Source: a virus. From it: 56,601 nucleotides of DNA. Positions within the stretch are counted from its first letter, which is position 1. Each line of letters begins with the position of its first letter. The notes under the pieces are model-generated. The model made no database searches, was not told the origin of the DNA, and worked only from the letters and a program-made list of their open reading frames with translations. Made by a program: the position numbers and the translations under genes. Positions 20,439 to 43,736 of the stretch are shown here, in pieces. The DNA lies in the IMG/VR virus record IMGVR_UViG_3300032240_001377, positions 1-56,601 of that record; one strand, given 5' to 3'.

Positions 20439-21133
20439 CCCACCACCCCCATCCTGACAGCCAGCTTGGCCGTCAACTCAAGGTCGTTCTCAAGGTATGC
20501 CAGGGCCTGCTTCTGATCGGTCTGGTACAGGTCCCAGAAGAATGCGCCGGACCCGTTCTTCTGGCCCAACCCCAGCGACTTGCTGACCGCATCCAGGTTG
20601 TACCCAGCGAAGTCCCGCCCCATCACCAGCTCTGGCAGGAGGTCCCGGAACTTCTCGGCCCAGTTGGCCCGTCCGTTGTACCGGATCCAGTGGAGTGGCT
20701 GCACCTTGTGGACAATGGCCCGGAAGCGCAGGAACGGCAGGTCAAACCCGTGGATGTTGAAGCCGATGCACTGGATCCGTTCACTAATGGTATGGTTCAG
20801 CCAGCCAACAGCGTCACCTACCACCTGCTTCTCGTCTGTGCCGTGGAAGATGATGGGCGGACTCCAGCTAGGCTTGATGCCAACAGCCACCACCCTGCCA
20901 GTCAACGGGGATAGGGCGGCCTGGCTCATGTACCGGGCCTTCTTGTCCTCGATGGACGCCTTCATCTTGTCCGGGTCCTTCAGGTTGGCTGCCGGGGCGA
21001 ACTCCGGAATCTGGGAGAGAAGTTGGTCCTCGGGCAATGGGGCACTCTCAAGGTCAAAAACACACCACAATTCAGATGAACGGGTTGATTTCGGTGGCAG
21101 TTCAGTGTCTTCTAATGGATCGCCTGTATTCAT
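20435..21133 (-). CDS. 3'-5' exonuclease, DnaQ/PolB-exonuclease-like
   Basis: From the ATG at 21133 the protein has 232 residues. It carries the three DEDD motifs: Exo I FDLES (D27, E29), Exo II FNIHGFDLP (N126, D131) and Exo III YLENDLELT (Y213, D217), the order found in PolB-type proofreading domains. There is no polymerase domain in the gene or next to it. The role may be proofreading in trans, nucleotide recycling or recombination. The start overlaps the end of the HNH gene by 32 bases, so a longer start is unlikely. Confidence 0.8.
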   Translation of the reverse strand: MNTGDPLEDTELPPKSTRSSELWCVFDLESAPLPEDQLLSQIPEFAPAANLKDPDKMKASIEDKKARYMSQAALSPLTGRVVAVGIKPSWSPPIIFHGTDEKQVVGDAVGWLNHTISERIQCIGFNIHGFDLPFLRFRAIVHKVQPLHWIRYNGRANWAEKFRDLLPELVMGRDFAGYNLDAVSKSLGLGQKNGSGAFFWDLYQTDQKQALAYLENDLELTAKLAVRMGVVG

Positions 21134-21674
21134 TGTAATTACTCCTATAACAAATGGCGCATAAACCATTTCCAATGTGCTTGGCTTCTGATTTACCGCA
21201 TTGAGCACAAGATTTATGCTTCTTTGACCAACCAATTTTTGGTTGTCTGCTTTGCATTTCGTTCCAGTGAATCTTTATGTGATTAGACTGGCTCATTACT
21301 TCCAGATTTTCTATCCGGTCGTCATCTATAACCCCGTTCTTGTGATGCACTATCTCTTCTGGTTCCAAGAACCTTCCGATATGCTTCTCAACAACTAGCC
21401 TGTACCTGTAAACATGACTTCCGCAATAAGAAGGATTTGGGTGGTTTGGCGAGTAAATCAATACTCTACCATGCCCGTCAGTAATTTGACCACCTTTCCA
21501 GTTAGGATTATGCTCTCCTATGTTGGATATTATCTCTCTACCAACAAGGCTCCCATACTTTTTGAGTCGCTTTCTATGTGTCTGGCAAAGGCCAAGATTA
21601 CACATTGCTCTTCCGCAGTTAGGAACACTGCAAATACGTGGAACAGATCCATCTGCAATCTTTTTTCTTCCCAT
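21102..21674 (-). CDS. HNH homing endonuclease with zinc-ribbon termini
   Basis: A 190-residue protein. The N-terminal part has CSVPNCGRAMCNLGLCQTH, a Cys/His zinc finger seen in phage HNH nucleases. The core has YRLVVEKHIGRFLEPEEIVHHKNG (HH near 115-116) and DDDRIENLEVMSQSNHIKIH, completing the HNH/AP2-type nuclease. The C-terminus has a second CxxC zinc knuckle, CAQCGKSEAKH, and CAIC. Codon use is A/T-rich against neighbours, as expected for a mobile endonuclease. It sits between the SSB-like gene and the exonuclease, preceded by a long stem-loop. Confidence 0.85.
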   Translation of the reverse strand: MGRKKIADGSVPRICSVPNCGRAMCNLGLCQTHRKRLKKYGSLVGREIISNIGEHNPNWKGGQITDGHGRVLIYSPNHPNPSYCGSHVYRYRLVVEKHIGRFLEPEEIVHHKNGVIDDDRIENLEVMSQSNHIKIHWNEMQSRQPKIGWSKKHKSCAQCGKSEAKHIGNGLCAICYRSNYNEYRRSIRRH

Positions 21675-39265: not shown

Positions 39266-40325
39266 GGCTTCAGCTTGGGCGGTTGACCAAAAGGTTGGGA
39301 ACTCTACCGCAAAATTGCTTCTACTAACCCTAGCAGAGGCCGCCTCGATTGAGGATGCTTCATGCTTCCCGTCAAGGGCCACTCTGGCTGACCGGATTGA
39401 GGCATCAGTGGACACTGTGGACAGGATGGTTCGGGTTCTGGCTGACAGGGGATTCATCAGCATTTCAAAACGCCATCGTCCCAATGGATCAGACAGTAGC
39501 AACGTGTACACAATCAACCTGAACAAGGAGCCGCAGATTGCGGCCCCAGCCAGCAAGCCTGTAGTGCAAGGTAGGGCCGCACCAATGCGGCTCCCCCAGC
39601 CGCACAGCTATGCGGCCCCCCCCAGCCGCACCCATGCGGCCCCCATACTAACCGGTCAGTCAGAACCGTCAGTTGAACAGGTCAATTCTTGTCGAGCATG
39701 GAACTCGACGCCAGAGCTACCCAGTCCATCCCATCCTCCTCAAGGCCCTGACAATTCAAACCTCGAAGCACTCCCTTCGGCGGAGCCGAAACCCAACCCC
39801 CATCTCCGCCAGCCCCCCTCCCTTAAACGCGCACCTTCCCTGCCTCTGAGCCCACCTCGGTCTCGAAACCCGCTTCTAGACGCCTTGGCGCTCCACGGCG
39901 GCGCGTCCTTGGATCACATGACACCCAACGAATGGGGCCGGGCAGCTAAGGCACTTAAGGACATCCGGTCAGTGAAGCCGGATCTGTCCATCGAGGACAT
40001 CCGGATTGCGTCTGAGAACTACAAGCAGTTGTACGGAATCTCCCACCTGACGGTGACGGCCCTGTCCAACAACTGGTCCAAGATCCGCCCCGGGGTGGTC
40101 CTTCCCGACCCAAAGAAGTCATCCACACGCCCCGCCTGGGCTATCCGGAAGGACAAGGAGGCTGAAATCGACGCCCTTGAGGAAAAAATGCTCATCCACC
40201 CTGGCAATGCAAACGGCCGTAAGTGCATCCCACATGAGACCAGCGAGGCCACATTTGCAGCGTTTGACCAACTGAAGGCCAAACTGAAGGCCCTCCAAGC
40301 CGAACTGGCCTCCATCCCTGCCTAA
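39255..40325 (+). CDS. Replication initiator-like winged-HTH protein
   Basis: A 356-residue protein. Residues 5-80 form a winged helix (WAVDQKVGNSTAKLLLLTLA, then SRATLADRIEASVDTVDRMV and DRGFISI), as in lambda O-type replication proteins. A Pro/Ser-rich linker (about 100-215) contains HAAP-type repeats. The C-terminal domain is helical. In lambdoid phages such proteins bind origin iterons and load the helicase, which is coded by the next gene, starting right after this stop. The target could be the repeats at 35705-35783. Confidence 0.65.
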   Translation: MSFKASAWAVDQKVGNSTAKLLLLTLAEAASIEDASCFPSRATLADRIEASVDTVDRMVRVLADRGFISISKRHRPNGSDSSNVYTINLNKEPQIAAPASKPVVQGRAAPMRLPQPHSYAAPPSRTHAAPILTGQSEPSVEQVNSCRAWNSTPELPSPSHPPQGPDNSNLEALPSAEPKPNPHLRQPPSLKRAPSLPLSPPRSRNPLLDALALHGGASLDHMTPNEWGRAAKALKDIRSVKPDLSIEDIRIASENYKQLYGISHLTVTALSNNWSKIRPGVVLPDPKKSSTRPAWAIRKDKEAEIDALEEKMLIHPGNANGRKCIPHETSEATFAAFDQLKAKLKALQAELASIPA

Positions 40326-41696
40326 ATGAGTGAAATCACCCCATTCAGGCGGACCGGCCGGGCCATCGACCTGTCCAAGCTGGACCGCCTTCCCCCTCAC
40401 TCGATTGAAGCCGAGCAGGGCCTTCTGGGCTGCTGCCTGATGGATCCGAACGAGGTCATCCCGGCAGCCAAGGCGACCATCCAGACCGAAACCCTGTACG
40501 ATTTGCGCCACCAGGCCATCTGGGACTGCCTCGTCAAGCTGATCGAGGCCATGAAACCGGTGGACCTGATCTCGGTCCAGCAGGCCCTGAAGGACGCCAA
40601 CCAGTTGGAGGCTGTGGGCGGGCTGGCCTACCTCAGTTCACTACAAGATGCCTGCCCCAGTGCGGTCAATGCGGCCTACTACACTGCCATCCTCAAGGAA
40701 AAGCAGTTAGCCCGGGACCTTCTCCACGCGGCCAACCAGGTCGCCAGTTCCATCTACGAGAAGGAGGCTGACATCGCCACCATCCTGTCTGGCCATCTCA
40801 ACCAAGTGGAACTGCTGTGCCAGGTGGACTCGTCGGATACCCGTACTTCAGGGCAGGTGATGGCCAAGGTGGTGGACCATGCCCAAGCGGTGTTCCAAGG
40901 AACAGCCCAGCCGGCCATCCTGACCCCGTTTTACACGTACAACCGGTTCGCTGGGGGACTGTGGACCGACGAGCTGGTGGTGGTGTCGGCCAGACCGGGT
41001 GTGGGCAAGACTGCTTGGCTAACCCAACTGGGTGCCCATGTGGCCCAGGAAGTCCCGGTGGGGATGTTCTCGGCCGAGATGAGCGCAGAACAGGTGGTCC
41101 AACGGTTTGTGGGTGGGCTGGCCGGTGTGAACGTCCGGGACATCAAGGAATGGACCCAGGAGGACTTCAAGGCGTTCACCGTGGCAGCCTCGCGGTTCAA
41201 GAACCTGAAGCTGCTCATCAACGACACACCCTGTATCTCCATCGAGAAGATGCGGCCCCTGGCCAAGGAGTGGGTCAGGAAGAAAGGGGTGAAGGTCATC
41301 GTGGTGGACTACCTCCAGAAGCTGACCACCCTGAAGGAATGCGGGAACCGGGAGCAGGAGATCGCCCACATATCTTCAACGTTAAAGCTGATCTCCCGGG
41401 AGAACCACATCACCGTGGTATGCGCCTGCCAGTTGAACCGGGAATCCGAGAAGAAGGGGGCTGGTCGTCCCAAGTTCTCCCAGGCCCGCGAGTCCGGCGC
41501 CATCGAGCAGGATGCGGACGTGGGGGCTGTGCTGTACCGGAACGACGAGGAGGACAACGAGCTGGCCCGCTACCAGTCAAGGCCGTACGAGGTCACGCTG
41601 GATGTCCAGAAGGGACGGAGCGGAGGGGTGTTCCGGGTGTCCATGGTGTTCGACGGCAAGAAGCAGCAGTTCACCGAGAAACCGTTCGAGCCTTGA
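40326..41696 (+). CDS. dnaB: Replicative DNA helicase, DnaB family
   Basis: A 456-residue protein with the DnaB N-terminal domain (LPPHSIEAEQGLLGCCLMDP, then the helical hairpin to about 110) and the RecA-like motor: Walker A SARPGVGKTA (about 221-230), FSAEMSAEQVVQR (H1a region), VIVVDYLQKL as Walker B, and an ARESGAIEQDADV segment typical of DnaB. Acts as a hexameric 5'-3' helicase at forks, probably loaded by the preceding initiator-like protein. Length matches the family. Confidence 0.9.
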   Translation: MSEITPFRRTGRAIDLSKLDRLPPHSIEAEQGLLGCCLMDPNEVIPAAKATIQTETLYDLRHQAIWDCLVKLIEAMKPVDLISVQQALKDANQLEAVGGLAYLSSLQDACPSAVNAAYYTAILKEKQLARDLLHAANQVASSIYEKEADIATILSGHLNQVELLCQVDSSDTRTSGQVMAKVVDHAQAVFQGTAQPAILTPFYTYNRFAGGLWTDELVVVSARPGVGKTAWLTQLGAHVAQEVPVGMFSAEMSAEQVVQRFVGGLAGVNVRDIKEWTQEDFKAFTVAASRFKNLKLLINDTPCISIEKMRPLAKEWVRKKGVKVIVVDYLQKLTTLKECGNREQEIAHISSTLKLISRENHITVVCACQLNRESEKKGAGRPKFSQARESGAIEQDADVGAVLYRNDEEDNELARYQSRPYEVTLDVQKGRSGGVFRVSMVFDGKKQQFTEKPFEP

Positions 41697-41706
41697 AACT
41701 TCCCAC

Positions 41707-41735
41707 TTGACGCCATCGACACATTCCACCAACAT
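41707..41735 (+). promoter_or_regulatory. Promoter of mom-like gene
   Basis: TTGACG (41707-41712), 17-base spacer, CAACAT (41730-41735), with AAACTT (41696-41701) five bases before the -35. Leader about 31 bases. Confidence 0.55.
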
Positions 41736-41772
41736 GTCGATGCCATGAACAATGCCTACTAAACCAGATAAT

Positions 41773-42490
41773 ATGAAAGTAATTCAACTATCAAAAAAAA
41801 GACTGTGATAGATGGGTTCTGGCCAAGCACTATTCAAGACGGGCTCCTATTTACTGGGCTGGGTTTGGGTTGGTGATTGATGGGAATGTTGAAGGGGTTT
41901 GTGTGTATGGACAACCTTCTCCACCAATCCAAAAACACGCATTCAAGGATCGTGATTTCAAGCTGCTTGAACTTTCAAGGCTTGTGGTACAGACAACTCA
42001 GAAGAATGCGGCATCATTCTTGGTTGGTAACAGTCTCCAAATGCTTGATGCGCCGTGTGCGATAGTATCTTATGCAGACAGTGAGCAAGGGCATTCAGGA
42101 ATTGTCTATCAGGCGACCAACTGGATTTACACTGGAGCCACAAAATCACACGACAGCGCCTACATTGTGGACGGTAAAAGGGTTCATCCCATGACTCTGC
42201 GCGATATGGGAATCACCGACCCTGTAAGGTGGGCAAAGGAAAACGGAATAGAAAAAGTACCTCCAATGCCAAAGCACAGGTATTTCCAATTTGTAGGCAA
42301 CAGGCAGCAGATACGGAAAATGAAATGCAAGCTGTCGTACCCTATTGTAAGTGCATACCCTAAAAGCCCTAAATCCAGGTACGATGACGGACCTAAAATA
42401 GTCCACACTGTAAAAGAATATGATTCTTCTGAAGATTGGAACTTGCCACTTTACGGAATAAAAACCCTAGTCCAACAATCACTCCTGTAA
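41773..42490 (+). pseudogene. Mom-like DNA-modification gene, frame broken at an A8 tract
   Basis: The start ATG at 41773 reads MKVIQLSKK and then hits TGA. If one A were missing from the eight at 41793-41800, it would continue as DCDRWVLAKHYSRRAPIYW and then the long frame to 42490, giving 238 residues. That frame has AGFGLVIDGN, GVCVYGQPSPP, GIVYQATNWIYTGAT and PKHRYFQFVGN, the hallmarks of the phage Mom family, which converts adenine to a carbamoyl-type derivative and blocks restriction. The gene is A/T-rich, suggesting transfer. The break may be real phase variation, programmed slippage, or a sequencing error. Confidence 0.75.
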
Positions 42491-42666
42491 TGAACAATAC
42501 AGAAAAGGAAGCACTGGCCCGGTCCATGATCGCCCATGCCCAGCGCCAGCTCATCGAGGCTGAACTGCTGCTCAACGACCACGCGGCAGCCATCCATGCC
42601 AGGAATGCCATCCGTTCCACCGAGGAGGCGCTGGTGTGGCTGGAGGAGAAGGTGGTTACTGCGTGA
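42490..42666 (+). CDS. Small helical protein
   Basis: A 58-residue, fully helical protein (MNNTEKEALARSMIAHAQRQ...) with alternating charges. It starts in a TAATG overlap with the mom-like gene and its stop overlaps the helicase GTG. Not recognised. Confidence 0.6.
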   Translation: MNNTEKEALARSMIAHAQRQLIEAELLLNDHAAAIHARNAIRSTEEALVWLEEKVVTA

Positions 42667-43736
42667 CCCTCCGTCCATACCAGCAGAAGGTGGTTGATTG
42701 GGCCTGTACTAACGATAAAGGTATCGTAATCGCCCCACCTGGATCAGGCAAAACCATCATCGCCGCAGCCATCTGTTCAACCCATTGGTCTGGAGCCAAG
42801 ATTGGCTGGCTGGCACCTACAAAGGAGACATGCGCCCAAGCTGTTGATGCCCTTAAGTCGTTCAACATCCACCCCAGCCAGTACGAGGTGCGCTGCTACC
42901 ATGAGTCGGTGGACTTTAGCGACAGGGAAGTCATCATCGTCGATGAATGCAAACACGCATCCGCAAGGGTCCTCAAGGACATCATCGTCCGTAGCCAGTG
43001 CGATTCGGTGTACGGGTTTGATGGAACGCCATTCGGGGACAACGAGGAGCGCAACGAGGAACTTCTAGCCCTGTTCGGCCACTCCACCATCACCATCACC
43101 CGGGACGAGGTTGGATCGTCCTTGTCGAAAGCCAAGGTGGTCCTGTCCGACGCCACCGACCAAGACCTTGAAGGACGGATCAACCAGAACATCGAGAAGC
43201 TGGTGAAGGTACGGTCCCGGTTCATGCGGATACCTGAAGGTGAGATCAGGGCCATGGCGGCTTGGGAGTCCATCGTGGACATCGGCATCTGCCAGAACAA
43301 CGCCCGTAACTACGCCGCACTGAACTTCTGCCTAGCACATGCCGACAAACAGGTGCTGGTGCTCGTTCCACGCATCACCCTGGGCGAGAAGTTCGAGGCC
43401 AAGATACCAGACTCCACACTGGTCCATGCCAAGATTGGAAAACTGGACCGGAAGCGGGCTATGGATGACTTCAAGGCTGGAAAGCTGAAGTGCATGATCG
43501 CCACCACCCTGGCCGACGAGGGGCTTGACCTTCCGAATGCGTCCCACTTGGTCATGGTCAGCGGTGGACGGTCAACCCAGCGGACCACCCAAAGGACAGC
43601 GCGTGTTTTGCGGGCCTTCCAAGGAAAGACCCATGCCACCATCCTGGACTTTGTGGACTCGTTCCATCCACTGGCCTTCCGTCATGCGCTCAGGAGGCGC
43701 GAGGTGTACAAGGAACTCGGGTATGAGATTGGATAA
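42663..43736 (+). CDS. SF2 DNA helicase, UvsW/RecG-like
   Basis: A 357-residue protein from a GTG start. Motif Q/I: LRPYQQKVVDW and IAPPGSGKTIIAA (Walker A, about 24-31); motif II VDECKHAS (about 92-99); motif III FDGTPFG; motif V ATTLADEGLDLPNAS and motif VI QRTTQRTARVLR. This is the complete two-RecA-domain layout of phage SF2 helicases that act in fork restart and recombination. The start is chosen by the GTGA overlap. Confidence 0.85.
   Translation: MTLRPYQQKVVDWACTNDKGIVIAPPGSGKTIIAAAICSTHWSGAKIGWLAPTKETCAQAVDALKSFNIHPSQYEVRCYHESVDFSDREVIIVDECKHASARVLKDIIVRSQCDSVYGFDGTPFGDNEERNEELLALFGHSTITITRDEVGSSLSKAKVVLSDATDQDLEGRINQNIEKLVKVRSRFMRIPEGEIRAMAAWESIVDIGICQNNARNYAALNFCLAHADKQVLVLVPRITLGEKFEAKIPDSTLVHAKIGKLDRKRAMDDFKAGKLKCMIATTLADEGLDLPNASHLVMVSGGRSTQRTTQRTARVLRAFQGKTHATILDFVDSFHPLAFRHALRRREVYKELGYEIG

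Follow-up and report, generated by a model that had tools for sequence, protein, structure and literature searches.

Mom is a phage gene that helps to conceal viral DNA from bacterial enzymes. In phage Mu it belongs to the com-mom operon, where GATC sites upstream of mom serve Dam-dependent control. Phase variation is well known in the bacteria that fight phages, their restriction-modification genes included. At homopolymers it proceeds by slipped-strand mispairing, as described for type III methyltransferases with poly-G or poly-C tracts and for the poly-A tract of Mycoplasma p78 (PMC3711429). Genes interrupted at poly-A can also be rescued by transcriptional slippage, as at the A11 of Citrobacter rodentium tssM1 (PMC4256274) and at the A8 or A9 of IS elements (PMC1088944). 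A phage counter-defence gene using phase variation would, if true, mean that the virus too hedges its bets, in this case in how its DNA is modified.

Here we analyze a mom gene in the IMG/VR virus record IMGVR_UViG_3300032240_001377, whose full 56,601 nucleotides are referred to as the window. The gene is homologous to Mu Mom (PF25680, PHROG 1384, PDB 8bv8) across the domain, with core motifs in common, KHYSRR and YQA(T/S)N among them, and is distinguished from it by an N-terminal frame break. In contrast to the Mu operon, no com-sized ORF lies between mom and the dnaB-like gene that ends 76 bp upstream, and no GATC site is present at 41400-41772; with neither com nor upstream GATC in the window, Mu's known regulation is inapplicable. 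As in homopolymer phase variation, a DNA-modification gene is broken at a homopolymer near its 5' end, but this tract is neither conserved nor enriched in its clade and is known from one sequence. As in the slippage rescue cases, poly-A stands just before a premature stop and a useful product lies in another frame, although the tract is only A8 and its site is not conserved.

A mom gene split between two reading frames

The sequence-only reading had taken 41773-42490 for a Mom-like gene with start codon and domain in different frames, split at an A8 tract. Both parts of that description are borne out, the identity by matches to PF25680, PHROG 1384 and PDB 8bv8, the split by the reading frames and two intact relatives, L002 and L003. 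The gene consists of the following parts.

41773..41808, + strand: N-terminal piece of mom, MKVIQLSKKRL and then TGA; read in the sequence, with an N-terminus like those of L002 and L003
41793..41800, + strand: A8 tract, the place of the frame break; read in the sequence
41801..42490, + strand: remainder of mom, read in the +1 frame and open until TAA, with the family's conserved positions retained

Domain searches were run with Mom read in one frame from 41783. The Pfam Mom profile PF25680 matched with E 2.1e-28 and 99.8 bits (cut-off 27.1), aligning residues 5-186 to positions 9-200 of 202 and thus covering most of the profile length. PHROG 1384 matched with E 1.4e-41, and PDB 8bv8, 'Methylcarbamoylase mom', with E 1.9e-19 from clade profile A2 and 7.7e-07 from the sequence alone. 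On these matches the gene is a member of the Mom DNA modification family, with a predicted role in adenine modification.

The frame of the ATG at 41773 is terminated by the TGA at 41806, and the Mom frame opens downstream of a TAA at 41780-41782. Before the TTG at 41870 the Mom frame contains no ATG, GTG or TTG. That TTG was rejected as an alternative start, being located beyond the conserved KHYSRR motif, which it would remove, and an ATG at 41811 does not share the Mom frame. The closest relatives, L002 (80%) and L003 (78%), carry the unbroken sequences MKVVKLSKSECDEWVKLKHYSRR and MNVVKLSKAECEQWVKLKHYSRR with an ATG at the same distance and the N-termini MKVVKLSK and MNVVKLSK, respectively. 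Since N-terminus and spacing are the same and unbroken in these relatives, the two pieces in the window belong to a single gene that is broken at the A8. Were a single-base indel placed at random, it would hit these 8 of 718 bases with a chance of ~1%.

Downstream of the break there are no stops in ~229 codons, and the family-invariant residues are present. Divergence from L002 (pN 0.16, pS 0.84) is low at nonsynonymous and saturated at synonymous sites. An open, conserved downstream frame implies that the break is recent, or suppressed so that some Mom is made, or artefactual. An exact 28-base search for a near-identical record in which to compare tract lengths gave no match, and the phages collection held no DNA match to the mom region.

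Genomic surroundings and composition

The gene lies between two helicase genes and is bounded by a short direct repeat.

40326..41696, + strand: DnaB-like helicase, upstream neighbour, GC 61%
41745..41753, + strand: ATGAACAAT, left copy of a 9-bp direct repeat that encloses the AT-rich mom cassette
42490..42498, + strand: right copy of ATGAACAAT, at which the next small ORF begins
42636..43736, + strand: DNA helicase, downstream neighbour

Mom is foreign in composition. Its GC content is 44% (GC3 0.44) where its neighbours stand at ~60% (dnaB 61%, GC3 0.82), and AAA makes up 11 of its 18 Lys codons vs 41 of 507 across the main genes of the phage. The gene was probably acquired recently. A shared 9-mer is expected by chance in ~2% of cases, and the bounding repeats are consistent with insertion as a cassette. 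The leader before mom also holds an inverted repeat, CATCGACA/TGTCGATG, at 41714-41742. Elsewhere in the window, an HNH endonuclease occupies an AT-rich stretch (21102-21674) that overlaps the end of an exonuclease-like gene and is perhaps a homing element.

The A8 tract in relatives and in the mom family

Tract length at the site was compared among relatives, as the sequence-only reading had suggested. L002 and L003 are in frame and lack the tract altogether, the run is A7 in L011 and L017, and L022 carries an A8 over the same Ser-Lys-Lys codons, in frame and intact. A conserved A tract in the window's clade was thus sought and is absent. Across 183 deduplicated mom loci, runs of at least eight A number 59, nearly all in frame, and among the surveyed loci no frame break other than the window's falls on such a run. 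In a set of 100 mom genes, synonymous codon shuffles predict 38.9 such runs against 43 observed, leaving no excess. An A8 in mom is ordinary and follows codon usage. Among cultured phages, each Mom match fetched with its annotation (part of 247) is a single annotated ORF.

The proposal of a dedicated A-tract switch is not supported by these comparisons: the nearest relatives are without the tract, and the frequency of long A runs is that expected from Lys-Lys codon usage. In AT-rich genes, A8 tracts are frequent and mostly meaningless, and that of the window is best taken as a modest case and a caution.

Origin of the frame break in the window

The explanation we put first, and to which we give about an even chance, is that a slipped-strand indel at an ordinary A8 turned a recently acquired mom off. 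An AT-rich mom, probably a recent arrival in a tailed phage, where a replication gene stands on either side of it, would have suffered the indel in the Lys-Lys A tract at codons 7-9, putting its start out of frame. Translation from the normal start would then stop after 11 residues, leaving mom off in the sequenced copy; a second slip could in principle restore the frame, and the population may contain on and off forms. This account starts from what is observed: the frame is broken, relatives are intact, the frame downstream is conserved and A8 is ordinary in the family. It takes the A8 to be real and to have arisen by replication slippage, and the phage DNA would be unmodified in this form. 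The evidence base is one assembled sequence whose sequencing platform is unknown.

A sequencing or assembly error, with the true tract in frame and mom ordinary and intact, is unlikely but deserves serious weight. Homopolymers are the typical place of indel errors, nearly all relatives are in frame at the site, and the downstream frame is without decay. Against an error, a codon-usage scan found no other frame break in the 56.6 kb, a 3716-codon (11-kb) ORF is unbroken, and of the two runs of at least eight in the whole window (A8 at 41793-41800 and C8 at 39616-39623) the C8 lies inside a replication-initiation gene that is intact and keeps its frame; the low overall indel rate that this implies speaks against an error-prone assembly, not against a single homopolymer miscall. 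Contigs of this kind are mostly short-read assemblies, in which an A8 is seldom miscalled. The conserved downstream frame is equally a point in favour of suppression, which would give some full-length Mom through transcriptional slippage at the A8 or through a +1 slip of the ribosome at AAA AAA AGA. In Deinococcus and Nostoc, IS elements have been inferred to use slippage at A8 (PMC1088944). Very short runs suffice for RNA polymerases of the T7 type to slip, whereas the E. coli enzyme requires at least seven T and still more A, and bacterial RNA polymerase slips poorly at A8 (PMC6260861). AGA, which would occupy the A site after the tract, is the phage's rarest Arg codon (1.1 per 1000). The A8 site is not conserved in relatives, however, RNA structure around it is unexceptional (z -0.87), and scans for promoters and terminators there gave nothing. 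The programmed slippage that had been proposed fails in its canonical ribosomal form, since Mom is in the +1 frame and the -1 frame does not encode Mom and runs into a stop; the part that stands is that only a +1 shift or a slip on the mRNA would work. Overall we consider suppression improbable. Slightly more doubtful still is that the A tract was selected to switch restriction evasion by phase variation. Its N-terminal position resembles that of many contingency loci, and other mom lineages carry poly-G tracts in on and off states, but relatives in the window's clade either lack the tract or carry it without switching, A8 runs in mom are not enriched and almost never break the frame, and eight is short by contingency-locus standards.

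Frame breaks and poly-G tracts in other mom lineages

Frame breaks were surveyed in 214 deduplicated loci, with 12 in mom (190 intact places) and 29 in other genes (555 intact). With loci added, mom shows no overall excess (p 0.35). Breaks on runs of at least seven were found in mom only, namely in L020 (C7), L054 (G10), L112 (G8), L203 (G8), L096 (G9) and the window. With L112 left out of the test, as it came from a directed search, homopolymer-linked breaks number 4 in mom vs 0 elsewhere (p 0.004). The L020 break (L020:6466-6472) is in a mom of the window's clade, in the C-terminal third, and L021 is likewise broken. In L013 (~1640) the break in mom comes from one additional C in a CC/CCC stretch, a short site and not a long homopolymer. 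A tandem mom pair at L043:2174-3720 has its second copy interrupted by ~350 bp.

Runs of at least eight G on the coding strand number six in 134 kb of mom vs 0 in the 379 kb that the other genes of these loci make up, a comparison of small counts and partly shared ancestry that was framed after the first cases had been seen. Their lengths are 8-10 at three sites in mom, with in-frame and out-of-frame cases.

L050:6082-6090: site 1, between FGLY and GVCTFG; G9, in frame
L054:3137-3146: site 1; G10, broken
L112:2980-2987: site 1; G8, broken
L071:3706-3714: site 2, immediately ahead of ELNRL; G9, in frame; phage of 31% GC
L203:3139-3146: site 2; G8, broken
L096:3917-3925: site 3, C-terminal; G9, broken

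In L111, a relative of the site 1 loci, the loop is without a tract. When the viral collection was scanned twice with exact patterns, sites 1 and 2 yielded no more mom genes with poly-G, so that such genes form a small and rare part of the family. Besides L203 and L071, the scan for poly-G before ELNRL matched L269 and L271, which are non-mom and matched by chance. In the bacterial order of L096, Mom occurs in 2 of 189 genomes.

The on and off states of these tracts, compared across lineages from single contigs rather than as length variation within one phage, fit phase variation as a testable claim, not an established one; the cases come from contigs of metagenomes or from one metagenome-assembled genome, their platforms unknown. 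For the idea that mom is switched by homopolymer slippage, these mixed-frame poly-G tracts offer indirect support in other lineages. They suggest that selection may act on homopolymer switching in some mom genes, which counts against reading the window's break as mere slippage at an ordinary tract. We tentatively suggest, with more doubt than confidence, that phage mom genes may be contingency loci, with slippage at poly-G of 8-10 in a tolerant loop in several unrelated lineages, and with the A8 of the window a weaker instance. If true, one phage population would hold both modified and unmodified members. This lead is more interesting than the window's A8. In the open-access literature we found no paper on a phase-variable mom, which is not proof of absence. 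Paired poly-G tracts also occur outside mom: at L150:1587-1640 (IMGVR_UViG_3300031993_000068), in a phage with poly-G mom (L113/L050), a PAPS-reductase-like gene carries a G9 and a G10 45 bp apart, with a protein-like continuation in another frame.
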